Shown here piece after piece: positions 3,855-33,103 of a stretch of 37,211 nucleotides of DNA. The notes below the pieces were generated by a model. The model saw only the letters and a program-made list of their open reading frames with translations. It had not been told where the DNA came from and did not search any database. Each line of letters begins with the position of its first letter. Within the stretch, counting starts at the first letter, position 1. The position numbers and the translations under genes are program-made. Source of the stretch: Oscillospiraceae bacterium (GTDB lineage: Bacteria > Bacillota > Clostridia > Oscillospirales > Oscillospiraceae); the NCBI GenBank assembly GCA_017516925.1, contig JAFXAQ010000045.1:1-37211 (forward strand), given 5' to 3'.

Positions 3855-4045
3855 AAGCTAAGCTTTGCTTAGCTTGTCGATATAGCTCCCGGTGGGAGCT
3901 TCGATATGGGTTTTGCCCTCGATATGTGCTTCGCACTCGATATGCCCTTCGGGCGTGATTAGGAGCTATATCATATCGAGTTTGCGGAGCAAACATATCG
4001 AATTTGCGCAGCAAATATATCAATTTTACGAAGTAAAAATATCGA
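3855..4045 (+). repeat. Multi-hairpin repeat family A, copy 1
   Basis: Starts with the hairpin aagctaagc-ttt-gcttagctt. Left-arm hairpins (agctccc/gggagct, gggttttgccc, gtgcttcgcac, gcccttcgggc) are separated by TCGATAT. The core is GGAGCTATATCATATCG. Right-arm hairpins (gtttgcggagcaaac, atttgcgcagcaaat, ttttacgaagtaaaa) are separated by ATATCGA, the reverse complement. It fills the acsB-RACo gap and ends 24 nt before the RACo start codon. Confidence 0.85.
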
Positions 4046-4069
4046 CAAAAACTTTAAGGAAATATTTCA

Positions 4070-5986
4070 ATGAAAGTAGTATTTGAAATCGAGGGCGGGA
4101 GCCCCATTACAATGGAATGCAACGTTGGAGATAATTTACTGGAGCTGGCGCGGCGGGGCAATGTGGCCATCGATGCCCCCTGCTCCGGCAACGGCTCCTG
4201 CGGCAAGTGCCGTGTGAAGCTACTGGAGGGAGAAGTGGAATCTATCCCCTCCCGGCATATTTCCGACGAGGAATATAAAGAGGGCTGGCGCCTGAGCTGC
4301 AACTGCAAGGTTGTGGCAGATTGCCGGGTTCTGGTGCCGGATATTGCCAGCGCTTATCAGTCGAGAATGAAGACCGCTGACCTGTCTTCCCCGGAGGAGG
4401 TTGCCATTTTTAAGGCGGCCCAGGCAGATATGGCTGCGGCGGGGCTGGAATTTGGTACGGCTTTGGTGGCTGTGGAGATTTCTATGGCAGAGCCCACCGG
4501 CGACGACACGATGCCGGATATTGAGCGGCTGACCTGGGCGCTGCAGGAGGCAACCGGGGCAGAGAGGGTGGTTGTGCCCTATCCGGTGATGGTGAAAATG
4601 GCGGAATTTCTGCGAGGGCAAAACTGGCACATTGCTGTCAAAGGCGAGAAAAAAGACAACATTTTTACGGTATATAAGTTATGTAAACCGGAGGATAAGA
4701 CCTTGGTGGGCTGCGCCATTGACATTGGCACCACCACGGTATCCGGGGTTTTGACGGACCTCACCACGGGCGAAATTATCGCCAAGGGCTCCTCCGGCAA
4801 CGGACAGATTCGCTACGGCGCCGACGTGATTAACCGGATTATTCAAAGTGCCAGGCCCGGGGGCAAAAAGGCACTGCAGGATGCCATTGTGAAGGAAACG
4901 CTGGTGCCGCTGCTTGCCAAGCTTTGCCAGCAGGCTGGCATTGGCGCTGACCAGATTTTGCGGCTGTGCATCGGCGCAAATACGACGATGAATCATTTGC
5001 TGGTAGGCGTGGATGCGGACCCGGTGCGGATGGACCCCTACATTCCCAGCTTTTTCGCCTGGGGAGACCTGACGGCAAAGGATATCGGTCTGCCTGCCAA
5101 CCCTCTGGCGAAGGTCATTATCGCACCCAACATCGGCTCCTACGTGGGCGGTGACATTACCGCCGGTGCGCTGGCCACGATGATGTGGAATTCTGAGGAA
5201 ATGACCCTGTTTATCGATTTGGGCACCAACGGCGAAATTGTCTTCGGAAATCAGGACTTTTTGATGTCCTGCGCCTGCAGTGCCGGTCCTGCCTTTGAGG
5301 GCGGCGACATCTCCTGCGGTATGCGGGCAACGGATGGCGCTGTGGAGGCGGTGGTCATTGACAAGGAAAGTATGGAGCCCACCCTGACCATTGTGGGGGA
5401 TGCCGGGCAAAAATGCGTGGGCATTTGCGGCTCGGGCATTATCGATATCATTGCCGAGCTGTTCCGGTGCGAAATTATTAACGCCCGAGGTCAGTTTGTC
5501 CGGGAGGGCAAGCGGGTAGCAAGAGATGAGCACGGTATGGGTCGTTACATTCTGGCGTTTGAAAAGGAAACCGAGACCGGGCGGGAGGTGTCCATCAACG
5601 AGGTGGACATTGACAACTTTATCCGGGCTAAGGGCGCCATTTATTCCGGTATCGATACCCTGCTGCAAAGCGTGGATATGACAGCGGAGTGCATTGAAAA
5701 AGTGGTGGTTGCCGGCGGTATCGGCTCCGGCATCAATATGAAAAATGCCATCCGGATCGGTATGCTGCCGGATGTGGAGCTGGAACGGTATCACTATATC
5801 GGCAATTCCTCTCTCACCGGCGCTTACGCTATGGTGATGAGTGACGAGGCAACGGAAAAGTGCCATCAGGTGGGAGGGAATATGACCTATCTGGAGCTGT
5901 CTACCTATCCCGGGTATATGGATAGCTTTGTGGCGGCGTGTTTCTTGCCCCATACGGATGCAAGCTTGTTTCCCAGCATAAGCTAA
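4070..5986 (+). CDS. acsV: Reductive activator of corrinoid/iron-sulfur protein (RACo), 638 aa
   Basis: ATP-dependent ferredoxin-like activator that returns the inactive Co(II) corrinoid protein to Co(I). The N-terminal [2Fe-2S] domain (1-91) has C38, C44, C47 and C77 (C-x5-C-x2-C then SCNC). After a linker, the ASKHA/DUF4445 ATPase region starts near residue 216 (AIDIGTTTVSG), with a second phosphate loop FIDLGTNGEIVF and a C-terminal VVVAGGIGSG motif. The N-terminal cluster position fits RACo rather than methylamine-type RamA. The start follows AAGGA at 4056. The stop TAA lies inside the first hairpin of the next family A repeat, so the final residues (SIS) come from that element. The neighbours acsB and DUF3786 support the assignment. 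Confidence 0.9.
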   Translation: MKVVFEIEGGSPITMECNVGDNLLELARRGNVAIDAPCSGNGSCGKCRVKLLEGEVESIPSRHISDEEYKEGWRLSCNCKVVADCRVLVPDIASAYQSRMKTADLSSPEEVAIFKAAQADMAAAGLEFGTALVAVEISMAEPTGDDTMPDIERLTWALQEATGAERVVVPYPVMVKMAEFLRGQNWHIAVKGEKKDNIFTVYKLCKPEDKTLVGCAIDIGTTTVSGVLTDLTTGEIIAKGSSGNGQIRYGADVINRIIQSARPGGKKALQDAIVKETLVPLLAKLCQQAGIGADQILRLCIGANTTMNHLLVGVDADPVRMDPYIPSFFAWGDLTAKDIGLPANPLAKVIIAPNIGSYVGGDITAGALATMMWNSEEMTLFIDLGTNGEIVFGNQDFLMSCACSAGPAFEGGDISCGMRATDGAVEAVVIDKESMEPTLTIVGDAGQKCVGICGSGIIDIIAELFRCEIINARGQFVREGKRVARDEHGMGRYILAFEKETETGREVSINEVDIDNFIRAKGAIYSGIDTLLQSVDMTAECIEKVVVAGGIGSGINMKNAIRIGMLPDVELERYHYIGNSSLTGAYAMVMSDEATEKCHQVGGNMTYLELSTYPGYMDSFVAACFLPHTDASLFPSIS

Positions 5987-6168
5987 GCTTTGCTTAGCTT
6001 GTCGATATAGCTCCCTGCGGGAGCTTCGATATGTGCTACGCACTCGATATGTGCTGCGCACTCGATATGCCCTTCGGGCGTGATTGGGAGCTATATCATA
6101 TCGAAACGCGAAGCGTTATATCGAATTTGCGAAGCAAATATATCGATTTTACGAAGTAAAAATATCGA
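5980..6168 (+). repeat. Multi-hairpin repeat family A, copy 2
   Basis: Same order as copy 1: aagctaagc-ttt-gcttagctt, then agctccc/gggagct, gtgctacgcac, gtgctgcgcac and gcccttcgggc separated by TCGATAT. The core GGAGCTATATCATATCG follows, then aacgcgaagcgtt, atttgcgaagcaaat and ttttacgaagtaaaa separated by ATATCGA. The RACo stop codon (5984-5986) is within the first stem, and the DUF3786 start codon is 17 nt beyond the end. Confidence 0.85.
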
Positions 6169-6184
6169 CATATTGGAGTATAAA

Positions 6185-6913
6185 ATGCAAATAGAAAACA
6201 ACAAAGAACAGGTGCCGTTTGAGCATTATCAGGCGCTGTTTCGTCAGGCGGATGCTGCCGGGATGGCGGAGCGCAGTGGCGCAAAATGGGACGGGGAAAA
6301 GTTTTATGTCAACCTTTTGGGTACGGAATATCAGATTTCCCATCCGGAGTACGCCATTGCCTGCAATGTAGGGGAGGCGTTTCGCCTCCCGCGGGACGGG
6401 AAACCCGTCCTCGCAATGACAGAGGAAGGAACGATACCGAGCGGGTCAGGGAAGTGCCGACAAGATCAGCGCCTTGCACGAAATGTCAGCGGGCACTGCC
6501 CGCTGCCGCTGCCGGTGCAGACGTTTTTATTAAGATATCTGCTGGAGGGTAAGCAGGTTCTCTGGCAGGGGCAGTGGAAGACCTTCCGGGAGATGCCCTG
6601 GGGGGAGCTGTATATTAAGCCTTACACCGGCAGAGTACTGACCCGGGCGGCATTTACCTTTGGCACCCGGGTGGAGGCATTCAAAAATGCCTGCGAAAAA
6701 ATGGGAGCAACAAAGCTGTCCCACGGCGACGCCGGCTACGAATTTGACTTTCTGGGCGGCTACAAAATGCGCATTATGGTCTGGGCGGGAGATGAGGAAT
6801 TCCCCCCCAATGCCCAGATTTTGTACTCGGACAATTTTGAAACCGGCTTTGCCCCGGAGGACAGAGTGGTTGCCGGAGATATTTTGATTGGCGCAATCAA
6901 AAGCAGGATGTGA
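6185..6913 (+). CDS. DUF3786 protein with an in-frame repeat-encoded insert, 242 aa
   Basis: A DUF3786 member, a family of unknown function found beside acs/CODH genes in acetogens and methanogens. Recognisable parts are the N-terminal helix with AERSGAKWDGEKFYVNLLG, then PLPVQTFLLRYLL, the GQWKTFREMPWGELY block, a FG-x(n)-F-x-A-C helix, and the C-terminal MVWAGDEEFPPNAQILYSDN signature. Residues about 62-105 are not family sequence: they are translated from two dispersed repeats at 6368-6507 joined in frame without a stop. ATG 6185 follows GGAG at 6175. Position directly after RACo suggests a role in CODH/ACS or corrinoid-protein handling. Whether the enlarged protein still works is unknown. 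Confidence 0.85.
   Translation: MQIENNKEQVPFEHYQALFRQADAAGMAERSGAKWDGEKFYVNLLGTEYQISHPEYAIACNVGEAFRLPRDGKPVLAMTEEGTIPSGSGKCRQDQRLARNVSGHCPLPLPVQTFLLRYLLEGKQVLWQGQWKTFREMPWGELYIKPYTGRVLTRAAFTFGTRVEAFKNACEKMGATKLSHGDAGYEFDFLGGYKMRIMVWAGDEEFPPNAQILYSDNFETGFAPEDRVVAGDILIGAIKSRM
6368..6507 (+). repeat. Composite D+E repeat inserted inside the DUF3786 gene
   Basis: The first part is a family D unit (GTAGGGG, hairpin ggaggcg-ttt-cgcctcc, then gacggg-aaa-cccgtc, then CGCAATGACAGAGG). The second is family E (6430-6492), matching the minus strand of 690-752. A hairpin cagcgggca-ctg-cccgctg closes it. The reading frame stays open throughout. Confidence 0.8.
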
Positions 6914-6946
6914 AAAAACTGCAGGGAGGAATCCCTGCAGTTTTTT
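6913..6946. terminator. Strong bidirectional Rho-independent terminator
   Basis: Stem AAAAAACTGCAGGGA / TCCCTGCAGTTTTTT (15 bp, perfect) with a GGAA loop, A-rich on the left and T6 on the right. It starts on the last base of the DUF3786 stop codon. It ends the Wood-Ljungdahl transcript and can also stop minus-strand transcription from the DUF4838 gene. Confidence 0.9.
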
Positions 6947-7110
6947 AGTGAAGTTTTTGCTTTGCAAAAGTGAAGTTGCTATGCAGTGAAGTTTGGGCTT
7001 TCAGCCCAAGTGAAGTTAAGTTTGCCAAAAACACTTGCGTAAGCAAACTTCACTACGAAGTAACTTCACTGCCGTCAGGCAACTTCACTTGCCCAAAGGG
7101 CAAACTTAGT
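6947..7110 (-). repeat. Multi-hairpin repeat family B, copy 1 (minus orientation)
   Basis: On the minus strand it starts AACTAAGTTTGCC, where TAA is the stop codon of the DUF4838 gene. Hairpins (tgccctttgggca, gcctgacggc, acttcgt) are separated by AGTGAAGTT. A core containing GGCAAACTTAACTTCACT follows, then hairpins (tgggctgaaagccca, gcatagc, tttgcaaagcaaa) separated by AACTTCACT. Confidence 0.85.
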
Positions 7111-9052
7111 TGCCTTCCTGGAGGCTGGGCTGGTTGGTGGGCAGGCGGAGGAACACACGGCGGAAGTACAGGGAATGGTCAAAGTAGCGCTCGATTTCGA
7201 ATTCGTGGACGCCAAAGCGCTTGGCAAATTCCCGGGATTCCAGCCAGGCTTCCTCATTCTTGTTCTGGCAGCGCAGGGTCATCACGTCAATGACGCCCTG
7301 GATGTACTCCTTCTGCAGCTCCAGCAGACGCCAGGAGATACGCTGGGGACGGGTGGGGCAGACACGGTGGGCCTGACCCAAGGGCTCTGCCCGGGCAATG
7401 ATTGCCTTCAGCTTGTCAAAGACCTCCAGCATAGCCTCGTTGAGGTAGGCGTGGGGGGTATCGGGCAATCTTCTGCCACCGGCAAGGTAGGGGAACAAAT
7501 CCAGCTCCAGAATGTCCTGATAGAACTTCAGGGCCTCCTGCCAGTCCTGGCCGTAGGCGTGCTTGTAATAATCCTCCACCAGGTCCTCAAACTTGACAGA
7601 CTTGTTCAGCAGAGTTTCCGCGTACACGTAAATTGCCAGACCGTTGGGCCAGAAGGAACGCTGAGAGCCGTCCTCCACGTAGCCGTCCAGACCCATATAC
7701 TTCAGGCTCAGGATGTCCTCGTACACACGGCGGGCAATGTACAGACCGGTGAGGTCGTCGCACTGGTGGCGCCAGAAGTGGTACTCGTAGCTGAAGGTGG
7801 GACCCTTCCAGCTTTCCTGCCACTTACGAAGCAGCGCCAGGTGGTCCATAGCGGTTTTGGGGGTGAGCCAGGCATTGCGCACATAGGGCTCCGGATCAGG
7901 AATGGGGTCGCCCTCTACCACGGAGGAGCAGTAGCTTCTGTGGATGGGGGCGTACAGCAGGGAGAAACGGGTGGAGTTCTTGATCTTCTCCTGCAGGGGG
8001 GCAAAGAGGGTGTCTACGTAGCAGATGAACACGATGCGGGTGTCCAGACCCTCGGCGGTGAGCATTTCATCCAGCTCGTTCATAATCATCAGGTAGTAGT
8101 CAGAGGGGTTCAGCTTCTGACATTCCTCGCACTCGCAGTGGTTCCGGGAGCCGTCAGCCAGCCACACGTGGAGGTAGGTGACGTTGCTTGCCTGCTTGGC
8201 ATAGTTGGTGATGTACCGAGCCATCTGGGTACGGACCCAGGGGGTGGACATACACAAATTGGTGTTCAGGGCGACGTCGCCGTGGAGCTTCCGGACGCCT
8301 TTTTCCAAGGCAATCGCCTGCTGCTGCTTTTCCGTCAGCTGCACAGCATCCTTTTTCCAGCCCAGGGCAGAGTTCAGACCGAAGGGCTCGGCAGTCCAGC
8401 CGTGACCCATATCGTGGAACTGCAGACCACGCTTGGCAATCTCCGCCTCGCACTGGCGCTTCCACTGGAGCACCAGCTCCTGGGGCACAGGCTCCGGAGG
8501 ACGGTTTGCCTCGTTGTGCTGGTGGGCGTAGTAGTAATCATAGTAAATGAAGGGGTTATCGAACTCCAGCATATACACATTGCATTCCTGCTTTGCGTAG
8601 AAGTCGATGGTTTCCAGCATACAGGTCTGGCTTTCCGCGCCCTCGTTACAGTGACCACGGAAGCGGTGGTCCGCCATATGGTGGTACTTCTGGGGGGTGA
8701 TGTCCCGGACGGGCACGTGCTCGCCGTCTACGCCGGGGTAGAGCCAGCGGCAGCCGTTGAGCCGCAGGAAACGGTACACCGCAAAGAGCACACTGCGGGG
8801 GTTGGAGCCTGCCAGGATACCGCCCTTTTCGTCGGTGTCGATATGTACCACGTCGTCCAGCACCGGGTCGGTGGCTTCGCTTTCGATGCCGAAGTCCTCC
8901 AGAAGACCCAGGCGGAAGCCGTCTTGCGCCTCGGGGTTGTAGGCGATTTCGATTTCACCGCACCGGGGCATCAGCATACGCAGGTATTCCTTCAGCTCCT
9001 CGGCGGCAAAGTCCAGCACGTGGTCAGCTCGCAGCTTGTTGATGGTAAACAT
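7106..9052 (-). CDS. DUF4838 glycoside-hydrolase-like protein, 648 aa
   Basis: Predicted cytoplasmic glycosidase-like protein; no signal peptide is visible. An N-terminal alpha-glucuronidase/GH20-type small domain (residues ~10-115) shows FAAEELKEYL, DGFRLGL and GILAGSNPRSVLFAVYRFL with NGCRWLYPG. A DUF4838 TIM-barrel-like domain follows, with NVYMLEFDNPF, FHDMGHGW, LCMSTPWVR, YLHVWLADGSRNHCECEECQ and a helical C-terminal region. The Cys-x-Cys-x2-Cys cluster is typical of the family. Substrate cannot be read from sequence; a glycan or uronic-acid-containing oligosaccharide is likely. AGGAGG lies 5 nt before the ATG. The stop codon is the first codon boundary of a family B repeat, so the terminal Asn comes from it. 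Confidence 0.82.
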   Translation of the reverse strand: MFTINKLRADHVLDFAAEELKEYLRMLMPRCGEIEIAYNPEAQDGFRLGLLEDFGIESEATDPVLDDVVHIDTDEKGGILAGSNPRSVLFAVYRFLRLNGCRWLYPGVDGEHVPVRDITPQKYHHMADHRFRGHCNEGAESQTCMLETIDFYAKQECNVYMLEFDNPFIYYDYYYAHQHNEANRPPEPVPQELVLQWKRQCEAEIAKRGLQFHDMGHGWTAEPFGLNSALGWKKDAVQLTEKQQQAIALEKGVRKLHGDVALNTNLCMSTPWVRTQMARYITNYAKQASNVTYLHVWLADGSRNHCECEECQKLNPSDYYLMIMNELDEMLTAEGLDTRIVFICYVDTLFAPLQEKIKNSTRFSLLYAPIHRSYCSSVVEGDPIPDPEPYVRNAWLTPKTAMDHLALLRKWQESWKGPTFSYEYHFWRHQCDDLTGLYIARRVYEDILSLKYMGLDGYVEDGSQRSFWPNGLAIYVYAETLLNKSVKFEDLVEDYYKHAYGQDWQEALKFYQDILELDLFPYLAGGRRLPDTPHAYLNEAMLEVFDKLKAIIARAEPLGQAHRVCPTRPQRISWRLLELQKEYIQGVIDVMTLRCQNKNEEAWLESREFAKRFGVHEFEIERYFDHSLYFRRVFLRLPTNQPSLQEGN

Positions 9053-9092
9053 AGAAAACCTCCTGTTTCAATTCTCAATTGGTTCTGGGGGT

Positions 9093-9121
9093 ATTATGGC
9101 ATAAATTGGGTTGGAAAGCAA
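9093..9121 (-). promoter_or_regulatory. Sigma-70-type promoter of the DUF4838 gene
   Basis: On the minus strand: TTGCTT (9116-9121), 17-nt spacer, CATAAT (9093-9098), about 40 nt before the start codon. No operator was recognised. Confidence 0.6.
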
Positions 9122-9139
9122 GTGCGTTTTGGAAAATAG

Positions 9140-9168
9140 TTGATTTCGACAAGATATTGTGGTATCAT
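9140..9168 (+). promoter_or_regulatory. Sigma-70-type promoter of the secreted peptidase-like gene
   Basis: TTGATT (9140), 17-nt spacer ending TGTGG, TATCAT (9163). This places the whole family A copy 3 in a 5' leader of roughly 225 nt ahead of the TTG start at 9402. Confidence 0.55.
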
Positions 9169-9173
9169 TCTAT

Positions 9174-9348
9174 TCGGCGATATTTTTGCTTCGCAAAATC
9201 GGTATATTTGCCGTACGGCAAATTCGATATATGCCTTCGGCATTCGATATGATATAAATCTCGTTTGCGCAGCAAACATATCGAGTGCGCAGCACATATC
9301 GAGCCGCTTTGCGGCATATCGAAAATCTCGCAAGAGATTTATATCGAC
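9174..9348 (+). repeat. Multi-hairpin repeat family A, copy 3 (variant, in a 5' leader)
   Basis: Hairpins ttttgcttcgcaaaa, atttgccgtacggcaaat and atgccttcggcat are separated by CGATAT-type words. Then come gtttgcgcagcaaac, gtgcgcagcac, gccgctttgcggc and aaatctcgcaagagattt separated by ATATCGA. The conserved GGAGCTATATC core is missing, and a further hairpin gggcaagc-gtt-gcttgccc follows at 9350-9368. It lies upstream of a gene rather than after a stop. Confidence 0.75.
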
Positions 9349-9401
9349 AGGGCAAGCGTTGCTTGCCCGCATAATGACAGGAACGGAAGGAGGGCATTGC
9401 T

Positions 9402-10910: not shown

Positions 10911-11075
10911 GTTTGCCCTGACGGGCAAGTGAAGTTGCCTGACGGCAGTGAAGTTACTTCGTAGTGAAGTTTACTTTGTAAATGTTTTTAGGCAAACTTA
11001 ACTTCACTTTTGCCGCAAGGCAAAAACTTCACTGTGGAACACAACTTCACTGCAAACTGTAAGGTTGCAACTTAA
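10906..11075 (+). repeat. Multi-hairpin repeat family B, copy 2
   Basis: Starts AACTAAGTTTGCC with TAA as the stop of the upstream gene. Left hairpins tgccctgacgggca, gcctgacggc, acttcgt and tactttgtaa are separated by AGTGAAGTT. The core has TTTTTAGGCAAACTTAACTT. Right hairpins tttgccgcaaggcaaa, gtggaacac and gcaaactg... are separated by AACTTCACT. Confidence 0.85.
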
Positions 11076-11076
11076 C

Positions 11077-11111: not shown

Positions 11112-11262
11112 AATGCAAAATGCATAATGCATAGTGCAAAGTGAAGGTGTCCGCAAAGCGGACGGATTGAAATAGAGACGGATTCCTCCCCTTCGACTTC
11201 GCTCAGGGTCGGAATGACAGGGGAAGTTTGGAAAGTAATACCGTAATTTTGCATTTTGCGCT
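11111..11262 (+). mobile_element. MITE-like element with TGCAAAA-type arms, copy 1
   Basis: Left arm of AATGCAAAATGC words and right arm of GCATTTTGC words. The inside holds the GTGTCCGCAAAGCGGAC head, GACGGATTGA, and one CTTCGACTTCGCTCAGGGTC unit. Positions 11147-11259 match 12109-12221 at 110 of 113 bases. No gene is inside. The stretch 11263-11431 shows no convincing gene. Confidence 0.75.
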
Positions 11263-11461: not shown

Positions 11462-11470
11462 AGAGGCACA

Positions 11471-11727
11471 GAGAATTGATGGACATCAATTCTCAATGAA
11501 TTGCCCTGTGGGCATGAATTGGCTGTGCCATGAATTGCCTTCGGCATGAATTGTGCCTTACGGCACATTATTTTGGGGCAATTCAAATCATGGGGAGCGA
11601 TAGGAGCGCCGCCGGAGGCGGATGAAGCGACTTGAGCGAGTGGCAGCGGTCTGCAGGGAGCAAGCCAACTTTGTCTGGCGCAGCTACCGCAGGGTACCGC
11701 AACAGGAAAGTAGCGAGAAATCATGGG
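11471..11727 (+). repeat. Multi-hairpin repeat family C, copy 1, with an extra insert
   Basis: The first hairpin is gagaattgat-ggac-atcaattctc. Then gccctgtgggc, ggctgtgcc, gccttcggc and gtgccttacggcac are separated by ATGAATT. The core is ATTATTTTGGGGCAATTC, then AAATCATGG. Compared with copy 2, the hairpin starting GGAGCGA is split by about 110 bp of unrelated sequence (11604-11711) before AGCGAGAAATCATGG resumes. Confidence 0.8.
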
Positions 11728-11781
11728 GGGATGCGGGACGGGAAACCCGTCCCCTACAGCCTCGCAATGACGGAGGTGTGA
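11728..11781 (+). repeat. Family D repeat directly before terS
   Basis: Contains gacggg-aaa-cccgtc, CCCTACA and CGCAATGACGGAGG, as in the units at 6368, 18371 and 33943. It places a TGA 7 nt before the terS start, in the same frame, separating terS from anything upstream. Confidence 0.7.
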
Positions 11782-11787
11782 GGGGAA

Positions 11788-12132: not shown

Positions 12133-12240
12133 AATAGAGACGGATTCCTCCCCTTCGACTTCGCTCAGGGTCGGAATGACAGGGGAAGCTTGGAAAGCAA
12201 TACCATAATTTTGCATTTTGCACTTTGCATTTTGCATTTA
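12081..12240 (+). mobile_element. MITE-like element with TGCAAAA-type arms, copy 2
   Basis: Left arm AATGCATAATGCAGAATGC; right arm of repeated GCATTTTGC and GCACTTTGC words. The interior is nearly identical to copy 1, with the same head hairpin and CTTCGACTTCGCTCAGGGTC unit. The left end overlaps the terS coding sequence and the right end stops just before the terL ribosome binding site. Confidence 0.8.
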
Positions 12241-12256: not shown

Positions 12257-13432
12257 ATGGGGTTTAGTGAAAAGCAATTACGGGTGATGACCTGGTGGAA
12301 AGAGGATTATGACGGCATTATCTGTGACGGCGCTATCCGCGCCGGTAAGACCTACAGTATGTGCTGCGGATTTTTCCTGTGGAGTATGAGCCGGTTCCAA
12401 AATCAGGTGTTTGCCCTGTGCGGGAAAACTGTGGGGTCTCTCAGGCGGAACATTGTTTTGCATTTGTCTCAGTGGCTGGGGCGGGATTTTCAAATCACGG
12501 AGAACCGGGGGGAAAACAAGCTGACGGTGCGTCTGGGCAGCCGGGAAAATGTGTACTACCTTTTTGGAGGGCAGGACGAAGGCTCCTATATGCTCATACA
12601 GGGCATTACCCTGGCAGGGGTGCTGCTGGATGAGGTGGCGCTGATGCCCAAAAGCTTTGTGGAGCAGGCCTGCGCAAGGTGCTCGGTGGAGGGGTCGAAG
12701 ATGTGGTTCAACTGCAATCCCGGCTCCCCGGAGCATTGGTTTTACAAGGCGTGGGTGCTGGGGGCGGCGGAGAAAAATGTGCTGCGGCTGCATTTTACCA
12801 TGGGGGACAACCCGGGACTGTCGGAAAGCGTGCGACAGCGGTATGAAACCCTTTACACCGGGGTGTTTTACCGGCGGTACATTCTGGGTCAGTGGTGTCA
12901 GGCAGAGGGGCTTGTGTATGCTTTCGACGAAAATCGACATATTTCGACGTTTTCTCCGGAGGGGGGCAGGTACTACATTTCCGTGGACTACGGCACCCAG
13001 AACCCTTTTTCTGCGGGGCTGTGGTGTGTTGCCGGGGGGAAGGCATACCGGCTCCGGGAGTTTTACCACAACGGACGGGAAACGGGCAGCCGCACCGACG
13101 AGGAATACTACCGGGAGCTGGAAGCCCTGGCGGGGGAAAAACCTGTGGAGGCGGTGGTGATTGACCCCTCCGCTGCCAGCCTGATTACCCTGCTGCGGCG
13201 GAAAGGGCGGTTCCGGGTAAAGAAGGCGAAAAATAAGGTGCTTCCGGGAATTCGGCTGGTTTCTTCCCTTTTGCAGCAGGAGAAAATTCTGTTTTCTCCG
13301 GATTGCAAGGATGCTATCCGGGAGTTTGGGCTGTACCGGTGGGAAGAGACCGGGGATGTGCCGGTGAAGGAAAATGACCACGCAATGGATGATGTGCGGT
13401 ACTTTTGTGCCACCGTTCTGGCACGGAATTGA
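12257..13432 (+). CDS. Phage terminase large subunit, 391 aa
   Basis: ATPase-nuclease that drives DNA into the procapsid (PBSX/Terminase_3-like). Walker A is GAIRAGKT at 25-32 and Walker B VLLDE at 122-126, followed by a coupling segment and FNCNPGSPEHWFY. The RNase H-like nuclease carries acidic residues D244 (SVDYGTQNP), D303 (VIDPSA) and D378/D379 (HAMDDVRYF). All catalytic positions look intact. ATG 12257 is preferred over ATG 12245 because GGGGGA sits 4 nt before it and the family starts at FSEKQ. The TGA stop lies in the first hairpin of a family C repeat. Confidence 0.93.
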   Translation: MGFSEKQLRVMTWWKEDYDGIICDGAIRAGKTYSMCCGFFLWSMSRFQNQVFALCGKTVGSLRRNIVLHLSQWLGRDFQITENRGENKLTVRLGSRENVYYLFGGQDEGSYMLIQGITLAGVLLDEVALMPKSFVEQACARCSVEGSKMWFNCNPGSPEHWFYKAWVLGAAEKNVLRLHFTMGDNPGLSESVRQRYETLYTGVFYRRYILGQWCQAEGLVYAFDENRHISTFSPEGGRYYISVDYGTQNPFSAGLWCVAGGKAYRLREFYHNGRETGSRTDEEYYRELEALAGEKPVEAVVIDPSAASLITLLRRKGRFRVKKAKNKVLPGIRLVSSLLQQEKILFSPDCKDAIREFGLYRWEETGDVPVKENDHAMDDVRYFCATVLARN

Positions 13433-13606
13433 CTGTTGTCAATTCCAATGAATTGCCCTTACGGGCATGAATTGGCATAGCCATGAATTGCCTACGGCAT
13501 GAATTGTGCCTTACGGCACATTATTTTGGGGCAATTCAAATCATGGAGCGAAGCGAGAAATCATGGGGCGAAGCCCCAATTCATGATGCGAAGCATCAAA
13601 TCATTG
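13425..13606 (+). repeat. Multi-hairpin repeat family C, copy 2
   Basis: First hairpin ggaattgac-tgtt-gtcaattcc, holding the terL stop TGA (13430-13432). Then gcccttacgggc, ggcatagcc, gcctacggc and gtgccttacggcac are separated by ATGAATT. After the core ATTATTTTGGGGCAATTC come ggagcgaagcgag, ggggcgaagcccc and gatgcgaagcatc separated by AAATCAT or AATTCAT. It ends where the portal ribosome binding site begins. Confidence 0.85.
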
Positions 13607-13616
13607 GAGGAACATT

Positions 13617-14903: not shown

Positions 14904-15077
14904 AAGTGGAAAGTGTAAAGTGGAAAGTTATGGTGTTTGCTTTGCAAACGATTTTAATTGTCGGCGGAGCCGACACATCAATTTTCAACTTTCAATTTTC
15001 AATTAAAAATTTTTTGAGATTGCCACGGACGGCGGGGCGTCGAGGTCGCCGCCCCCTACAAGCAATGACAGAGGAGG
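14900..15077 (-). mobile_element. Word-arm element (inverted) plus family D unit
   Basis: Left end TTGAAAGTGGAAAGTG with TGA as the portal stop. Then TTATGGTGTTTGCTTTGCAA, GTCGGCGGAGCCGAC, and a right arm of TTTTCAACTTTC words ending ATTAAAAA near 15008. The internal order is the reverse of the other copies. A family D unit follows (15017-15077: GATTGCCACGG, CGAGGTCGCCGCC, GCAATGACAGAGG), whose end supplies the scaffold gene's ribosome binding site. Confidence 0.75.
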
Positions 15078-18329: not shown

Positions 18330-18480
18330 TGGATAGTTAAGGAGTCGCCTTTGGCGACGGATTGAATTGTAGGGGAGGCGTTTCGCCTCCCGACGGGACG
18401 GGAAACCCGTCCCCTACATTCAAATCATTTGCGGAGCAAACACCATAATTATCAATTATCAACTATCAATTATCCATTAA
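18309..18480 (+). mobile_element. Word-arm element with TTGATAA-type arms and family D cargo
   Basis: Left arm TTGATAGTGGATAATGG with TAA as the chaperone stop; right arm of ATTATCAACTATCAATTATC words (18446-18480). The interior has GTCGCCTTTGGCGACGGATT (head hairpin plus GACGGATTGA), a family D unit (ggaggcg-ttt-cgcctcc, gacggg-aaa-cccgtc), and CATTTGCGGAGCAAACACCA. It ends just before AAAGGGG of the next gene. Confidence 0.8.
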
Positions 18481-19043: not shown

Positions 19044-19214
19044 GAATTGAAGATTGAAAATTAGGAACGGATTGCCACGGACGGCGGGGCGTCGAGGTCG
19101 CCGCCCCCTACAAGCAATGACAGAGGAGATTTGGAGGGTGGTTCATTAAAATCATTTGCGGAGCAAATACCATAATTTTCAACTTTCAACTTTCAATTTT
19201 CAATTATCAATTAA
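19040..19214 (+). mobile_element. Word-arm element with TTGAAAA-type arms and family D cargo
   Basis: Left arm TTGAGAATTGAAGATTG with TGA as the Gp15 stop; right arm (19171-19214) of TTTTCAACTTTCAACTTTC words ending ATTAAAAAA. The cargo is a family D unit (GATTGCCACGG, CGAGGTCGCCGCC, GCAATGACAGAGG) nearly identical to 15017-15077. The right-end marker ATCATTTGCGGAGCAAATAC is also present. Confidence 0.8.
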
Positions 19215-19230
19215 AAAAGGGGGGGAGAAA

Positions 19231-25351: not shown

Positions 25352-25372
25352 AATGGATAAGGAGGTGTGAGG

Positions 25373-26185: not shown

Positions 26186-26409
26186 CGGCGGAGATTTTTG
26201 TGGCGCTGCTGGGCTTTGCCGGAACGCTGGTGGGGTCGCTTCTGGGTGTGGTTACTGCCCAGAAGCTGACCCAGTACCGGCTGTCCCAGCTGGAGGAAAA
26301 GGTGGGCAAGCACAATAATCTGGTGGAGCGCACATATATTCTGGAGGGACAGATAGCAGAGTGCTGCCACGATATCAAGGAATTGAAGGCTTATCATAAG
26401 CCAAGCTAG
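26182..26409 (+). CDS. XhlA-like membrane protein of the lysis cassette, 75 aa
   Basis: One N-terminal transmembrane segment (FVALLGFAGTLVGSLLGVV) followed by a short coiled coil (SQLEEKVGKHNNLVERTYIL), the pattern of XhlA/hemolysin-type holin partners. The TTG start overlaps the amidase stop (TTGA), so it is translationally coupled; a GTG start at 26200 is an alternative. The stop TAG is the loop of a perfect 9-bp hairpin (aagccaagc/gcttggctt) that opens family A copy 4. Confidence 0.7.
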   Translation: MTAEIFVALLGFAGTLVGSLLGVVTAQKLTQYRLSQLEEKVGKHNNLVERTYILEGQIAECCHDIKELKAYHKPS

Positions 26410-26584
26410 GCTTGGCTTAGCGATATAGCTCCCTGCGGGAACTGCGATATAGGCATTGCCTGCGATATGTGCATTGCACACGATATGCCCTGCGGGGCGT
26501 GTGGAGCTATATCATATCGCAACGCGAAGCGTTATATCGCGTTTGCGCAGCCAACATATCGCTTTTGCGAAGCAAAAATATCGC
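26398..26584 (+). repeat. Multi-hairpin repeat family A, copy 4 (covarying spacers)
   Basis: Opening hairpin aagccaagc-tag-gcttggctt. Left hairpins agctccctgcgggaact, ggcattgcc, gtgcattgcac and gccctgcggggc are separated by GCGATAT. The core is GGAGCTATATCATATCG. Right hairpins aacgcgaagcgtt, gtttgcgcagccaac and ttttgcgaagcaaaa are separated by ATATCGC. Other copies use TCGATAT / ATATCGA, so both arms changed together. Confidence 0.85.
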
Positions 26585-26613
26585 CTACAAATTGCGATGG
26601 AAGGAGCATATTT

Positions 26614-26784
26614 ATGAAACAAAATTTGGCAAATCTGATCAAGGTTAAGACCATCGTCACTTTGGCGGTGACGGCGGTGTTTGCGGTGCTGTCTCTCACC
26701 GGGAAAATCACCCCGGACAATGTGATGGTGATTGTGTCGATGGTGGTTTCCTTCTATTTCGGTACACAGCACGAAAAAAACTAA
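26614..26784 (+). CDS. Small holin-like membrane protein, 56 aa
   Basis: Two predicted transmembrane stretches (IVTLAVTAVFAVLSLTG and VMVIVSMVVSFYFGT) joined by a short polar turn, with a charged N-terminus (MKQNLANLIKVK) and tail (QHEKN). Placement after the amidase and XhlA-like genes supports a phage holin that permeabilises the membrane for the endolysin. ATG 26614 follows AAGGAG; the longer frame from 26467 reads only the repeat. The terminal Asn and TAA belong to a family B repeat. Confidence 0.75.
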   Translation: MKQNLANLIKVKTIVTLAVTAVFAVLSLTGKITPDNVMVIVSMVVSFYFGTQHEKN

Positions 26785-26948
26785 GTTTGCCCTTCGGGCA
26801 AGTGAAGTTGCCTGACGGCAGTGAAGTTACTTACGCAGTGAAGTTTGCTCCGCAAGTGTTTTTGGCAAACTTAACTTCACTTTTGCCGTAAGGCAAAAAC
26901 TTCACTGTGCAAACAACTTCACTGCAAACCGCAGGTTTGTAACTTCAC
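26780..26948 (+). repeat. Multi-hairpin repeat family B, copy 3
   Basis: Starts AACTAAGTTTGCC with TAA as the holin stop. Left hairpins tgcccttcgggca and gcctgacggc, then acttacgcagt, are separated by AGTGAAGTT. The core has GTTTTTGGCAAACTTAACTT. Right hairpin tttgccgtaaggcaaa and imperfect successors are separated by AACTTCACT. Same order as copy 2. Confidence 0.85.
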
Positions 26949-26973
26949 CACACCTATAAAAGCACCAAAGAAA

Positions 26974-27002
26974 TTGACACCCTATGGCTTTTTTGGTATG
27001 AT
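26974..27002 (+). promoter_or_regulatory. Strong sigma-70-type promoter of the GH24 gene
   Basis: Consensus TTGACA (26974), 17-nt spacer, TATGAT (26997), about 35 nt before the start codon. It gives the lysozyme gene its own transcription, separate from the phage lysis cassette upstream. Confidence 0.8.
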
Positions 27003-27037
27003 ACTGTCGAAAGATTGCAGAGCAAGGATGTGTATCT

Positions 27038-30000: not shown

Positions 30001-30052
30001 CGGCTATTACGAAGACGACAGCGCAAAAACCGCCACTGTCACAATAAAATAA
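27038..30052 (+). CDS. Secreted GH24 lysozyme with SH3 and six FN3-like modules, 1004 aa
   Basis: Exported muramidase. Signal peptide 1-23 (CLLAAVLLCACLPMAYA). GH24 domain ~30-165 with candidate catalytic E44 (KAREGF) and D53, and S58 where Thr is common (YWDYAHYSIGYGT). A Flg_new/InlB-like repeat lies near 225-275 (YDFAGWYTADGEQVTR), an SH3-like domain near 295-355 (CNTRKGPGSETYGKSGKLL), and six ~92-residue fibronectin III-like modules from ~450 to the end, each with a YxVxYR/K core and FRVxSY strand. Phage endolysins rarely have a signal peptide plus FN3 arrays, so a host surface or remodelling enzyme is more likely than a second phage lysin. AAGGA precedes ATG. Confidence 0.85.
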   Translation: MRKLWVCLLAAVLLCACLPMAYAAETEGRMVASQALIDKMKAREGFSATPYWDYAHYSIGYGTTCPEELVSYYEQFPMSEALAETEFKKHLGEFEEAVRAFAQKHSLTLAQHQFDALVSFSYNCGAGWMDSLSGYFNTAVRQGDTGAALLYGMSLYSTAGGQYLLIGRRLWEANMYINGDYGEGEKGNYPDNYRWVFLEGNGGKVRYKICAFDTHYQAALPEAFGEIPLGKDEQGNTFVYDFAGWYTADGEQVTRLDSSLVRGQTLYARWTDPQGNFRPDETVPQFPQTAVVKTDCNTRKGPGSETYGKSGKLLKGQTVTVTEERYGNTVSGQTVWCKVGKNKWVTKAYLEYTFSTQTDLPADNGGTALKSLKKIKNPAQTQFVQPILSPDWEGSVVLATYQNGYQKAFTVTRAMVENFNGAKLGKQTVTAKVEGKAVKFSVSVSRLKSPGQLTGAAIEDNAALLSWEPGENATDYYVYYRKDGDTRFTLAGTTAALSYEIPALERNARYQFRVVSYRLEEGYAKQGPGAETALFINDKMDAPGDLVAEATGETAVQLSWKAASGATHYQVLYKAENAKEYTSAGMTQELNFAISDLSINTRYDFKVVSYLIGEAQEEGPQTRPVSVFLHPTLGAATGLTAEQTAHDTAALTWQPGENATFYQVQYQLPTDETYTTLGETEGLTYEATLPRVNVTYRFRVVSCYAYGSNRATGPAGGETSLDTAPITAAPRHLQAARSGNGAVKLTWEAAGGTTDYYVYYRRSGDTAFTKAGKTPELTYTVGDLDPTEAYDFRVHSYYQDDTGSYKGPMAETALTLSLQVAAPTDLTATLTDHDDVQLTWTAADGASHYYVYYRKAGKEAFTKAGETDGLSYTVENLANNKPYEFRVIGYFKNGTGAYKGAGTEPVSCATTRELFAPLLLRLKCSNSGTVQISWSRAWGATAYAVYLKRDGDSGYTLLGHYAGTAAEQTGLTGGSYTCKVVPCTTVNGGYYEDDSAKTATVTIK

Positions 30053-30055
30053 AAA

Positions 30056-30182
30056 GGCTCCCTCTGATGAGGGAGCTGGCAAAAATCTTTGATTTTTGAC
30101 TGAGGGAGAGAATGCTGTGGGCAGGACTACCCCTCCGTCTGCCTGACGGCAGCCACCTCCCCTGACAAGGGGAGGCTTTTTT
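30056..30182. terminator. Family F repeat acting as bidirectional terminator
   Basis: Hairpin ggctccctc-tga-tgagggagct directly after the lysozyme stop, then GGCAAAAATCTTTGATTTTT, GACTGAGGGAGAGAATG, hairpin tgcc-tga-cggca, and a final hairpin cctcccc-tgacaa-ggggagg with T6 (30156-30182). It lies between convergent genes and the last hairpin is a good terminator for the plus strand. Confidence 0.75.
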
Positions 30183-30184
30183 AA

Positions 30185-30943
30185 TCATATCCGGTAGAGC
30201 CGTTTGGCATTTTCCGTGGTGGCGGCAATGACCTCCTCCACCGGCAGTCCCCGGATTTCGGCAAGCTTTTCTGCCATCCGGGGCAGGTACCCCGGGTCAT
30301 TCCGCCGTCCCCGGTAAGGCTCCGGCGCCATAAAGGGGCAGTCCGTCTCCAGCACAATCCGGTCCAAGGGGATGCTTTCGGCAGTCTCCACCGCTTTGCG
30401 GGCATTTTTAAAGGTGAGCACCCCGGTAAAGCCGATGTACCAGCCCATATTCACCAGCTGCCGTGCCATCTCCGCAGAGCCGGAGTAGCAGTGGAACACC
30501 CCGGTGACCTCCTTGAATTCCTTGACGATTTTCATACCGTCATCGTGGGCATTGCGCTCATGGACAATCACCGGCATATCCAGCTCCCGGGCAAGCGCCA
30601 GCTGCATCCGGAAGGCCTTTTGCTGAACCTCCCGGGGGATGGTTTCGTAGTAGTAGTCCAGACCAATCTCTCCGATGGCCTTGACCTTGGGATGCCGGGC
30701 AAGACGTCGAAATTCGTCGATTACTTCGTCATTTACCTCGTCGGCGCTGTCCGGATGGGAGCCCACAGAGGCATACACGAAGGGATATTTCTCCGCCATA
30801 GCCACGCAGTCCCGGGAAGATGCCAGAGAGCAGCCTGCATTTAAAAAGTGGGAAACTCCCTTGTCCTGTAAGCCCAAAATCACACTGTCCCGGTCTTCAT
30901 CAAATGCCGGGTCATTCATATGGGCGTGGGTGTCAAACAGCAT
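30185..30943 (-). CDS. tatD: TatD family metal-dependent hydrolase (DNase-like), 252 aa
   Basis: TIM-barrel hydrolase, reported in the family as a 3'-5' exonuclease or D-aminoacyl-tRNA deacylase-like enzyme. Metal ligands: DTHAH at the N-terminus, Glu in IGEIGLDYYY, His in PVIVHERNAH, His in GVFHCYSG and Asp in VLETDCPF; all present. The GRRNDPGYL loop is also typical. The ATG at 30941-30943 (MLFDTHAH) is preferred because GGAGGAG lies 6 nt upstream; the ATG at 30958 would place that site inside the gene. It probably forms one minus-strand unit with the transferase gene, with a word-arm repeat between them. Confidence 0.92.
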   Translation of the reverse strand: MLFDTHAHMNDPAFDEDRDSVILGLQDKGVSHFLNAGCSLASSRDCVAMAEKYPFVYASVGSHPDSADEVNDEVIDEFRRLARHPKVKAIGEIGLDYYYETIPREVQQKAFRMQLALARELDMPVIVHERNAHDDGMKIVKEFKEVTGVFHCYSGSAEMARQLVNMGWYIGFTGVLTFKNARKAVETAESIPLDRIVLETDCPFMAPEPYRGRRNDPGYLPRMAEKLAEIRGLPVEEVIAATTENAKRLYRI

Positions 30944-30964
30944 ATCTTTCTCCTCCATCGAAAT

Positions 30965-31049
30965 GAATTGAGAATTGAGAATTGAAAATTGAAAATTAGG
31001 ATGTCTGCTTTTTATTCATTTTCAATTTTCAACTTTCCATTTTCAATTA
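30965..31049 (-). mobile_element. Short word-arm element between sfp-like and tatD genes
   Basis: On the minus strand it begins TTGAAAATGGAAAGTTG immediately after the transferase TAA. It carries only about 25 nt of inner sequence and ends with CAATTTTCAATTCTCAATTC before the tatD start. It shows the same placement rule (directly after a stop) on the opposite strand. Confidence 0.75.
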
Positions 31050-31514
31050 TTCTATAATTGCTACCAGGTGGTTTTCTATCACCTGTACTCTCGTATCTGC
31101 TAAATCGAAGCTTGTGCGGTTGGGGTAGCCGTTGATGCCCTCGCCGGTCAGCTTCCCCGCAGCCTCCTTCAGCACCCAGAAGGTCAGAAGCGCCTTTCGT
31201 TTATCTTCGGCTTTTTCATATTGGGCGTATTCATAGGGCGAGAGAATTTTCTCTGCCAAAGCGAGCTTAACATCCCGGCTTAAATCCTCGGCGTCAATGC
31301 CCACAGGCTGCTTGCTCAGGGCGCAGAACACCATAGCCTTTGTGTGGGCGATGGAAAAATGGTAATCCCCCTCTGCAAAATAGGGCTTACCCCTTTCCCC
31401 AAGCAAAATTTCCGGCAGCCGGCAGCCGGTTTCTTCTTTATACATTCGGGCAAGGAGCTGCCTGCCGGCATCGTGACCGGTTTCCTTCCCAATGGGCAGA
31501 TACTTTACAATCAT
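31047..31514 (-). CDS. Sfp-type 4'-phosphopantetheinyl transferase, 155 aa
   Basis: Transfers the phosphopantetheine arm of CoA to a carrier-protein serine. Family motifs are present: the PYFAEGDYHFSIAHTK segment, the Mg-binding VGIDAEDL, and FWVLKEAAGKLTGEG (the W-x-x-KEA-x-x-K motif). At 155 residues it is shorter than Sfp (~220) but has the full core. ATG 31514 is chosen because the frame above it does not resemble the family. The partner carrier protein is not in the window; fatty-acid ACP or a secondary pathway is possible. The -10 of its promoter lies 16 nt upstream of the start codon. Confidence 0.85.
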   Translation of the reverse strand: MIVKYLPIGKETGHDAGRQLLARMYKEETGCRLPEILLGERGKPYFAEGDYHFSIAHTKAMVFCALSKQPVGIDAEDLSRDVKLALAEKILSPYEYAQYEKAEDKRKALLTFWVLKEAAGKLTGEGINGYPNRTSFDLADTRVQVIENHLVAIIE

Positions 31515-31529
31515 AAAATCACCGCTATC

Positions 31530-31558
31530 AGTATAACGGCAAAAGGGATAACTGTCAA
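31530..31558 (-). promoter_or_regulatory. Sigma-70-type promoter of the transferase-tatD unit
   Basis: On the minus strand: TTGACA (31553-31558), 17-nt spacer, TATACT (31530-31535). A near-consensus promoter divergent from yabP. Confidence 0.75.
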
Positions 31559-31574
31559 ATGCCGTGCATAGACT
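31548..31574 (+). promoter_or_regulatory. Possible sigma-E-like sporulation promoter of yabP
   Basis: ATA at 31548, 16 nt, then CATAGACT at 31567, resembling the mother-cell sigma-E pattern (ATA-N16-CATA-cac-T). It overlaps the divergent transferase promoter. Bacillus yabP-yabQ is sigma-E dependent, which makes the match plausible, but the motif is short. Confidence 0.3.
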
Positions 31575-31591
31575 TTTTCGAGGTGATGGAA

Positions 31592-31858
31592 ATGGAACCG
31601 CTGGTACTGCCCCACAAGCTGACCCTGGATGAACGGAAAAGCCTGACCATGACCGGGGTGACGGAGGTGCTGAGCTTTGAGGAAAATTATGTGCTCCTTG
31701 CCACCAGTCTGGGACAGCTGGAGGTGCAGGGGGAAAACCTGTTTTTGAAAAATCTGTCGCTGGATGGGGGGCTTTTTGCGGTGGAGGGGGAAATCTCTGC
31801 CCTTTGCTACACCCAGCGCCGGGAAAAACACAGCTTCTGGGAAAGGCTCCGCCCATGA
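31592..31858 (+). CDS. yabP: Sporulation protein YabP, 88 aa
   Basis: Spore-coat/assembly family protein needed in the mother cell. The pattern LPHKLTLDERKSLTMTGVTE then VLSFEENYVLLATSLGQLEV and LFLKNLSLDGGLFAVEGEIS is characteristic, with a FWERL close. ATG 31592 has GAGGTGA 5 nt upstream; upstream ATGs at 31559 and 31586 are less likely. The stop overlaps the yabQ start (ATGA). The order yabP-yabQ-divIC-yabR matches Bacillus and most endospore formers, suggesting a spore-forming lineage. Confidence 0.9.
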   Translation: MEPLVLPHKLTLDERKSLTMTGVTEVLSFEENYVLLATSLGQLEVQGENLFLKNLSLDGGLFAVEGEISALCYTQRREKHSFWERLRP

Positions 31859-32397
31859 CCCCGACCCAGAGCGTCAGCTTTTTTGCCGTTGCCCTTTTCT
31901 TCGGTGTGGGACTGGGGCTGTTTTATGATGTGGTCAGACCCCTGGGGCATTTGGGAGACCTGCTGTTTGTAAGCGCTGTGTTCTGGAGCTTTCTGCAGGT
32001 GGGCTTTGGGGTCTGCCGGGGAGACATCCGGCTGGGGGTGATGTCAGGACTGTTCTGGGGGGCGGTGGGGTGGAAGGTGACCCTGAGCCGTTATTTTGCG
32101 CCTATTCCCCGAAAAATTTTTGAAAAAACCCGGGATTTCCTAAAATTCCTCTTGGCAAAGGTAAAAAAACAAGTTACAATAAGGCTTAAGGAAAGAGGAG
32201 GTGCCCGGAATGAACAGTCCCCTGAAAAATATCCGGATTGTATATCGGCGCGCCCCACTGACGGTAAAGGCGCTGGTGCTCTTTGCGCTGGTGCTGTCCA
32301 TTATGACCCTGACCGTCCTGCGCGTGGCGCTGCAGGACGCAGAAAAGCAGCTGGAAAGCGCCCGGGCAGAGGCGCAGGTTCTGGAGCAGGAAAATGA
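31855..32397 (+). CDS. yabQ: Sporulation protein YabQ, probably with a shifted 3' end, 180 aa as read
   Basis: Membrane protein of the spore cortex pathway. Hydrophobic segments SVSFFAVALFFGVGLGLFYDV, LLFVSAVFWSFLQVGFGV and SGLFWGAVGWKVTLSRYF precede a basic tail, as in the family. The reading frame then runs 188 nt into divIC with a non-family, Gly/Ala/Arg-rich sequence. An A7 run at 32163-32169 lies just before this. One base fewer would give a stop TAA at about 32179, and one more a stop near 32190, both before the divIC ribosome binding site. A natural or sequencing frameshift is therefore likely. Function assignment is good; the C-terminus is doubtful. Confidence 0.75.
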   Translation: MTPTQSVSFFAVALFFGVGLGLFYDVVRPLGHLGDLLFVSAVFWSFLQVGFGVCRGDIRLGVMSGLFWGAVGWKVTLSRYFAPIPRKIFEKTRDFLKFLLAKVKKQVTIRLKERGGARNEQSPEKYPDCISARPTDGKGAGALCAGAVHYDPDRPARGAAGRRKAAGKRPGRGAGSGAGK

Positions 32398-32512
32398 CCG
32401 CCTGCGCAAATCCATTTCCCAGCTGGGCACTGTGCAAAGCGTGGAAAGCCTTGCCACAGAGCTTTTGGGTCTGGTGGACCCGGATACCGTCATTTTTGAT
32501 ATTGGAGGATAG
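32210..32512 (+). CDS. divIC: Septum formation initiator DivIC/FtsL-like, 100 aa
   Basis: Bitopic division protein of the DivIB-DivIC-FtsL complex. A short cytoplasmic N-terminus (NSPLKNIRIVYRRAPLTVKA) is followed by one transmembrane helix (LVLFALVLSIMTLTVLRVAL) and an extracytoplasmic coiled coil (EKQLESARAEAQVLEQENDR), with a C-terminal ELLGLVDPDTVIFDI segment. ATG 32210 is used because GAGGAGG lies 8 nt upstream; GTG 32201 is inside that site. Position between yabQ and yabR supports DivIC. Confidence 0.87.
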   Translation: MNSPLKNIRIVYRRAPLTVKALVLFALVLSIMTLTVLRVALQDAEKQLESARAEAQVLEQENDRLRKSISQLGTVQSVESLATELLGLVDPDTVIFDIGG

Positions 32513-32521
32513 AAAATACCC

Positions 32522-32920
32522 ATGGAGTTTACCACAGGCGCCGTGTTAGACGGCAAAGTCAAATCCATCACCAGCTTCGGCGCATTTATCGCCCTGCCGG
32601 AAAATAAGTCCGGCCTTGTGCACATTTCTGAGGTCGCCAACACCTACGTCAGCGATGTGCGCCAGCACCTGACAGAGGGGCAGGAGGTAAAGGTGATGGT
32701 CATCGGCAACGAAAACGGCAAGCTGAACCTGTCCATCAAGCGCCTGGAGGCAAAGCCTCAGCGTGAGGTAAGACCGGTAAAGGTTGCCCCTCCTGCAGAG
32801 CCGAAAACAGCTGACCAGCTGTTTGAGGAAAAGCTCAAGGCCTTTATGTCGGAGTCTGACAGCAAGATTTCCTCTTTGCGCTCCGTGGCTGACCACCGTA
32901 CCAGAAGCCGCAGGAGATAA
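32522..32920 (+). CDS. yabR: S1 RNA-binding domain protein YabR, 132 aa
   Basis: Small RNA-binding protein. The S1/OB fold occupies residues 1-75: TGAVLDGKVKSITSFGAFIA, SGLVHISEVANTYV, and VKVMVIGNENGKLNLSIKRL. A Pro/Lys linker and a basic tail ending RTRSRRR follow. The start lies 9 nt after the divIC stop, whose end (GGAGGATAG) provides the ribosome binding site. TAA is followed within 2 nt by a family A repeat. Confidence 0.9.
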   Translation: MEFTTGAVLDGKVKSITSFGAFIALPENKSGLVHISEVANTYVSDVRQHLTEGQEVKVMVIGNENGKLNLSIKRLEAKPQREVRPVKVAPPAEPKTADQLFEEKLKAFMSESDSKISSLRSVADHRTRSRRR

Positions 32921-32921
32921 T

Positions 32922-33103
32922 TGTCGGCTTTGCCGACATCGATATAGCTCCCGTTGGGAGCTTCGATATGCGCTTTGCGCTCGATATGTGCTTTGCACTC
33001 GATATGTGCTACGCACGTGTTGGAGCTATATCATATCGAAACGCGAAGCGTTATATCGAATTTGCGCAGCAAATATATCGATTTTGCGAAGCAAAAATAT
33101 CGA
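32922..33103 (+). repeat. Multi-hairpin repeat family A, copy 5
   Basis: Opening hairpin gtcggc-ttt-gccgac in place of the AAGCTAAGC stem. Then agctcccgttgggagct, gcgctttgcgc, gtgctttgcac and gtgctacgcac are separated by TCGATAT. The core is GGAGCTATATCATATCG. Then aacgcgaagcgtt, atttgcgcagcaaat and ttttgcgaagcaaaa are separated by ATATCGA. It directly follows the yabR stop. Confidence 0.85.

Follow-up and report, generated by a model that had tools for sequence, protein, structure and literature searches.

Multi-hairpin intergenic repeats in an Oscillospiraceae genome point to a probable mobile element associated with S23-family proteins

Copies, words and pairing of family A

The window analyzed here, the whole 37,211-nt stretch, is contig C41 of a draft genome of an Oscillospiraceae bacterium (1.65 Mb, 83.55% complete). 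It carries five copies of a hairpin-rich repeat of ~190 bp each, family A (Table 1), all lying between protein genes and none within a 23S rRNA gene; the gene at 4070-5983 is preceded by copy 1 and followed by copy 2. An earlier note on this stretch had reported five copies made of hairpins set between left words TCGATAT and right words of the reverse complement, ATATCGA, and we found all five where it had put them, with words and hairpins as described. The window contains 48 occurrences of the sequence CGATAT where 7.05 would be expected, and none of 100 shuffles reached 48.

The order of parts is H0-W1-H1-W2-H2-W3-H3-W4-H4-spacer-core-R1-H5-R2-H6-R3-H7-R4, where W is TCGATAT in family A, R is its reverse complement, and the core reads GGAGCTATATC or departs from it in step with H1. 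The common core GGAGCTATATCATATCG, which the note had ascribed to four copies, is exact in copies 1, 2, 4, and 5 and was found exactly once more in the same genome. Copy 3 is the same element, but it lies on the minus strand, has the core GAGATTTATATC, and has an end hairpin that reaches 9368 instead of 9348. In copy 4 the left words do change to GCGATAT and the right words to ATATCGC, but W4 is ACGATAT, so that the change is incompletely matched.

Further copies were found in the same genome and across the genus. A covariance model (R1) built from six copies gave matches, at an E value of 1e-4 (the E values being rough), in 63 of 136 genus genomes, with many genomic copies and up to 16 per genome among the matches listed. 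Since this model incorporates a stem between words that found no support (below), and its matches lean to hairpin-rich sequence, the words were also checked by parsing. Exactly 4+4 words are present in 85 of the 126 parsed copies, 12 of which come from the genome of the window. The commonest words are TCGATAT (46 copies), GTGAAAT (38), GCGATAT (20), and ATGATAT (10), and one further hairpin element (locus L132) has GCTAAAT words; words differ between species of the genus. Within a copy, identity to the main word averages 87%, and all words are identical in 44 of the 126. The note had named no known element of this form; comparison with Rfam agreed, giving 0 matches at the gathering score in the window, and no described counterpart turned up in searches of one open-access literature library.

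The hairpins diverge among copies while remaining self-complementary, as expected for a conserved folded element: over 59 to 88 distinct sequences per slot, 92 to 97% of arm positions form Watson-Crick pairs, as opposed to 38 to 71% after arms are swapped between copies. The proposal that the words form one long interrupted stem did not hold. Among the 94 copies whose 4+4 words were clear and belonged to the main families (the other 32 of the 126 being omitted), 0 of 84 deviant word positions are compensated at the proposed partner, and the proposed pairing order (0.9681) scores no higher than its alternatives among the 24 possible orders (range, 0.9677 to 0.9692). Left and right words covary because all words in one copy tend to be identical, not through specific word-word pairing; family A is not the long-stem RNA that had been proposed. 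A different long-range stem does covary, in which W1 and the 5' arm of H1 pair with the core. It is 8 bp or longer in 135 of 179 copies, compared to 100 of 415 pairings with cores of another word family and 69 of 113 with cores of the same family, and an odd W1 can have a matching core, such as GAGAT/ATCTC in loci L191, L229, and L280. This stem and hairpin H1 are mutually exclusive.

The end hairpin H0, to the left of the first word, matches exactly between copies 1 and 2, at different sites flanking one gene. A hairpin lies no more than 8 nt left of the first word in 80 of 92 copies, compared to 8 of 92 on the right and 88 of 1,600 control sites; H0 belongs to the element. H0 often resembles a bidirectional terminator, from which came the idea that it is a host hairpin used as a target. 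We rejected this idea on the exact sharing of H0 by copies 1 and 2 and on the lack of such a hairpin, by eye, at the copy-2 site in the orthologues read. The three-base loops of the two halves are mirror images: among left hairpins, 143 of 319 are T-N-C and none G-N-A, and among right hairpins, 115 of 340 are G-N-A and none T-N-C, with C-G as the closing pair of the commonest ones. In single-stranded DNA, G-N-A loops are known for their high stability, and the mirror-image arrangement fits DNA better than one RNA strand.

S23 genes adjoining the element

S23 proteins are described, in the available part of PMC4990558, as known from rRNA insertions and without a known function. The flanks of 114 better-scoring matches among those listed, in 108 loci, were read, and in 17 of the 108 an S23/four-helix-bundle gene (PF05635, TIGR02436) lies directly after the right end of the element, on the same strand. 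One more element-adjoining S23 gene is present in the genome of the window; copies 1 to 5 do not carry one. The adjoining genes are mostly 115 to 134 codons long, and their script-picked start codons lie -4 to 50 nt from the model end, with those in L162, L173, L216, and L225 probably picked too far upstream. In two loci (L198 and L210) a further element lies beyond the S23 gene. A solved relative is 2rld, and the Xanthomonas S23 protein is a pentamer according to the same part of PMC4990558.

An S23 match was found in 94 of the 136 genus genomes, namely, 59 of the 63 that bear the element and 35 of the 73 that do not (Fisher test, 2.6e-9). We also scanned named genomes with the hairpin-type S23 protein and took the closest 80 of at least 551 relatives, which by title are Clostridia drafts or subgroups, many from the ruminant gut. 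A 4+4-word element, called above the 99th percentile of controls, lies just upstream of S23 in 58 of the 79 loci with enough upstream DNA, compared to 2 of 170 control windows.

The words follow the S23 proteins beside them. On an S23 tree of 76 proteins with nine words, with the 80 named loci reduced to 57 by a word filter, eight word changes suffice, which is the minimum, while each of 200 shuffles needs at least 44. Linkage makes part of this match expected, and the match was therefore tested across genomes. At least three GTGAAAT word pairs occur in 15 of 18 genomes with a GTGAAAT-type S23 protein, compared to 23 of 118 others (P = 2e-7), where the type was assigned by a 63% identity cut chosen after seeing the list. 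S23 loci with GTGAAGT words occur in other genomes.

Insertion sites and the origin of the repeats

Copies 1 and 2 are both absent from 29 of 29 other orthologous loci, by the covariance model and also by eye. Orthologues end in sequences such as PSSVQED, while the gene in the window ends in IS, with its stop codon (5984-5986) inside H0 of copy 2. The distance to the start of the next gene is at most 60 nt in 14 of the 29 orthologous loci and at most 400 nt in 21. Hairpin-less word arrays occupy the copy-1 site in two genomes (G033 and G089). Among 89 copies unlinked to S23, those between codirectional genes number 40 in sense and 4 in antisense orientation, as judged from the calls of a simple in-house gene finder, and the flanking genes vary among the copies read.

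We put at roughly two in three the probability that family A represents the non-autonomous copies of a mobile element that has an S23-type four-helix-bundle protein (PF05635/TIGR02436) as its cognate protein; the hairpin repeats and their matching S23 proteins together point to an undescribed sort of mobile element. In its complete form, the S23 gene would begin directly past the last right word of the multi-hairpin element, and most copies would have lost this gene or never had it. The S23 protein, a homopentamer in a solved relative, may bind the words once the hairpins fold in single-stranded DNA, the presumed active form. Such binding would drive copying to new sites, mostly sense-strand intergenic gaps, and S23 would move the element together with host enzymes.

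Several points weigh against a mobile element served by S23. No S23 gene was detected in four element-bearing genomes (G063, G098, G110, and G128); the draft status of the genomes may explain part of the S23/element mismatches. The S23 tree is built on few columns and leaves many forks unresolved, and part of its match to the words is co-inheritance, because word and S23 gene are physically linked in complete copies. GTGAAAT word pairs occur in 23 genomes without a GTGAAAT-type S23 protein, and the reverse is seen in 3 of 18. In a class-wide set, the 30 best S23 loci include 11 of the hairpin type and 4 of the array type, some of them weak, with 2 and 2 of 54 controls. We know of no catalytic site in S23 proteins. 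No movement was seen in the genomes compared, and a target duplication is unreadable because the nearest orthologues, which supply the empty sites, are 79% identical. The strong sense-strand bias is also compatible with a role as RNA.

Such a role would have the copies acting in intergenic mRNA through a terminator-like H0, stable hairpins, and a switch in which H1 alternates with the W1-core stem; S23 would bind RNA and regulate its own leader. Besides the 40:4 orientation, the covarying stem that excludes H1, the frequent likeness of H0 to a bidirectional terminator, and the action of the S23-like protein Avd in retroelements (PMC10053308, in its available part) would suit this explanation. 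We consider it unlikely, given that mirror-image loops would be unlike loops on a single RNA strand, that the words of the proposed stem do not covary pair by pair, that the window holds no Rfam family, and that flanking genes differ among the copies read. Still less probable is an origin without mobility, in which S23 is a host protein whose word binding sites arise and are homogenized at many places by recombination or selection. Whole ~190-bp copies with a common H0 at two sites, the absence of copies 1 and 2 at 29 orthologous loci, a linked S23 gene at a fixed place, and the patchy presence of the element (63 of 136 genomes) all speak against it, even though words are mostly uniform within copies, words of mixed first base exist, and movement went unseen.

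Among known systems, repetitive extragenic palindromes (REP) and their dimers (REPIN), with the REP-associated tyrosine transposase (RAYT), share with family A short palindromic, interspersed, polar hairpin units and non-autonomous copies alongside a linked protein gene; they differ in having a GTAG tag and a Y1 transposase where family A has variable 7-nt words and S23 (PMC3733652, in its available part). No GTAG (or CGTC) tag was found at the hairpin ends, the words being TCGATAT, GCGATAT, GTGAAAT, and others, and family A is not of the REP/REPIN kind by tag or by RAYT. That a Y1 (RAYT) transposase nevertheless moves these repeats is highly improbable. Polar word-plus-hairpin units in inverted halves do resemble REP dimers, and the genome of the window has two Y1_Tnp genes (L042 and L043). 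Yet among 14 element-bearing genomes of 92 to 99% completeness a Y1 transposase is present in only 6 and S23 in all 14, and of the two loci the one that was read, L042, has another palindrome, GGGACGGG..CCCGTCCC, and no CGATAT-word element in the part read. We rejected a RAYT/REPIN origin on these two grounds.

A reverse transcriptase was likewise rejected as partner: PF00078 matches in 3 of 15 element-bearing genomes, with no match in 12, nor in the genome of the window (84% complete), so that neither enzyme is a constant partner. Family A is by the same count not a diversity-generating retroelement, whose Avd protein is said to resemble PF05635 and works with a nucleic acid element, but depends on a reverse transcriptase together with template and variable repeats (PMC10053308, in its available part). 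Miniature inverted-repeat transposable elements and small repeats such as BOX are, like family A, small, non-autonomous, intergenic, and folding; for family A, neither a transposase-type parent nor a target duplication was found, the nearest empty sites being those in the 79%-identical orthologues.

The closest parallel is the intervening sequence (IVS) of Coxiella burnetii 23S rRNA, which has an S23-family open reading frame and complementary ends. According to the available part of PMC4990558, the S23 start is preceded by three heptamer repeats, or by two in some strains, and a further degenerate one, and the ends form a 28-bp stem, equal to 4x7 in length and interrupted by one mismatch and a bulge. 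By analogy with these heptamers and this end stem, the Coxiella IVS appears to be the same plan inside rRNA. It differs in lying inside 23S rRNA, from which RNase III excises it, whereas family A sits between genes, has its words separated by hairpins, and is mostly without the S23 gene. Family A is not an IVS, since it lies outside the 23S rRNA gene that defines one. If the IVS were counted alike, the element would belong to an already known kind, in variant form.

S23 loci elsewhere and other repeats in the window

Inverted words around S23 are not confined to the hairpin form. A 6-mer present at least twice on one side of S23, with its reverse complement at least twice on the other, was found in 24 of the 29 best genus loci and 0 of 112 controls. 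On plasmids of other phyla (19 of 26 records sampled), at least two exact inverted 7-mers flank S23 on each side in 13 of 19 loci, compared to 0 of 141 controls; the hosts include Nostoc, Planktothrix, and Bernardetia. The 7-mers are spaced by 7 nt in 10 of the 13 and by 14 nt in one, and irregularly in two (L391 and L394). Plasmid S23 loci of Treponema, Monoglobus, one Chlorohelix, Anabaena, Pseudanabaena, and Calothrix have no such 7-mers. A hairpin-type element was seen by eye in two phage-labeled gut contigs. As to neighbors, an S23 gene lies between cas2 and cas1 on Anabaena and Nostoc plasmids (L390 and L397), and other plasmid copies adjoin DISARM/BREX or type I restriction genes.

We lean slightly toward a broader view, that a single class of mobile element, with about 4+4 inverted heptamer words, has the S23 proteins across bacteria as its cognate proteins. 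The class would take the form of plain arrays around the gene (gut Clostridia, cyanobacteria, and Bacteroidota), of the 23S rRNA IVS, and of the hairpin-spaced element, and each form would have gene-less descendants, family A among them. Cyanobacterial heptamer repeats have long been known, and they would then also be explained. If S23 does serve these repeats, a large set of unexplained intergenic repeats could be assigned a protein and tested accordingly, and the movement of an element that lacks a recognized transposase would represent a new way of moving DNA. The match between S23 clade and word makes S23 function directly testable, as binding and mobilization of its own word.

Table 1. 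Coordinates of the family A copies, the parts of copy 2, and elements of like architecture in the window
Feature	Position	Strand	Detail
Copy 1, H0 through last right word	3855..4045	+	core GGAGCTATATC at 3962-3972
Copy 2, H0 through last right word	5980..6168	+	overlaps 3' end of upstream gene
Copy 2, H0	5980..6000	+	end hairpin AAGCTAAGC-TTT-GCTTAGCTT, same sequence in copy 1
Copy 2, W1	6002..6008	+	TCGATAT
Copy 2, 5' arm of covarying long-range stem	6004..6015	+	GATATAGCTCCC
Copy 2, hairpin H1	6009..6025	+	
Copy 2, W2-H2-W3-H3-W4-H4	6026..6079	+	
Copy 2, core	6086..6097	+	GGGAGCTATATC, 3' arm of long-range stem
Copy 2, R1-H5-R2-H6-R3-H7-R4	6098..6168	+	ATATCGA words
Copy 3, whole, inverted	9177..9368	-	core arms GATATAAATCTC 9251-9262 and GAGATTTATATC 9334-9345 (+ reading)
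Copy 4	26398..26584	+	GCGATAT/ATATCGC words, W4 ACGATAT
Copy 5	32922..33103	+	
Same architecture, AGTGAAGTT/AACTTCACT words	6945..7111	-	61.5 bits with model R1
Second AGTGAAGTT-word element, approximate limits	10923..11060	+	by eye, no model R1 match
Third AGTGAAGTT-word element, approximate limits	26770..26930	+	by eye, no model R1 match
Same architecture, ATGAATT/AATTCAT words	13426..13608	+	some right words AAATCAT; 47.8 bits

A second ATGAATT-word element lies at ~11473-11600 on the plus strand and is followed by a GC-rich stretch that is also in the core of a copy on contig C7 of the same genome. Short-word arrays without hairpins were seen at 846-880, 1602-1635, 18445-18478, 19172-19219, and 30966-31048; all except that at 18445-18478 use ATTGAAA/TTTCAAT, the array word around the genome's own S23 gene on contig C54. 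The Y1 transposase gene at L042 (contig C16) contains and neighbors the GGGACGGG..CCCGTCCC palindromes, which also occur in the window at 6392-6416, 11734-11758, and 18394-18418; gene and palindromes are likely a separate REP/RAYT pair. A 58-nt repeat with CCCTTCGACTTCGCTCAGGGTCGGAATGACA is present in seven copies, at 907-1605, 11171-11228, and 12133-12190, and a 59-nt repeat is 100% identical at 15018-15076 and 19070-19128.

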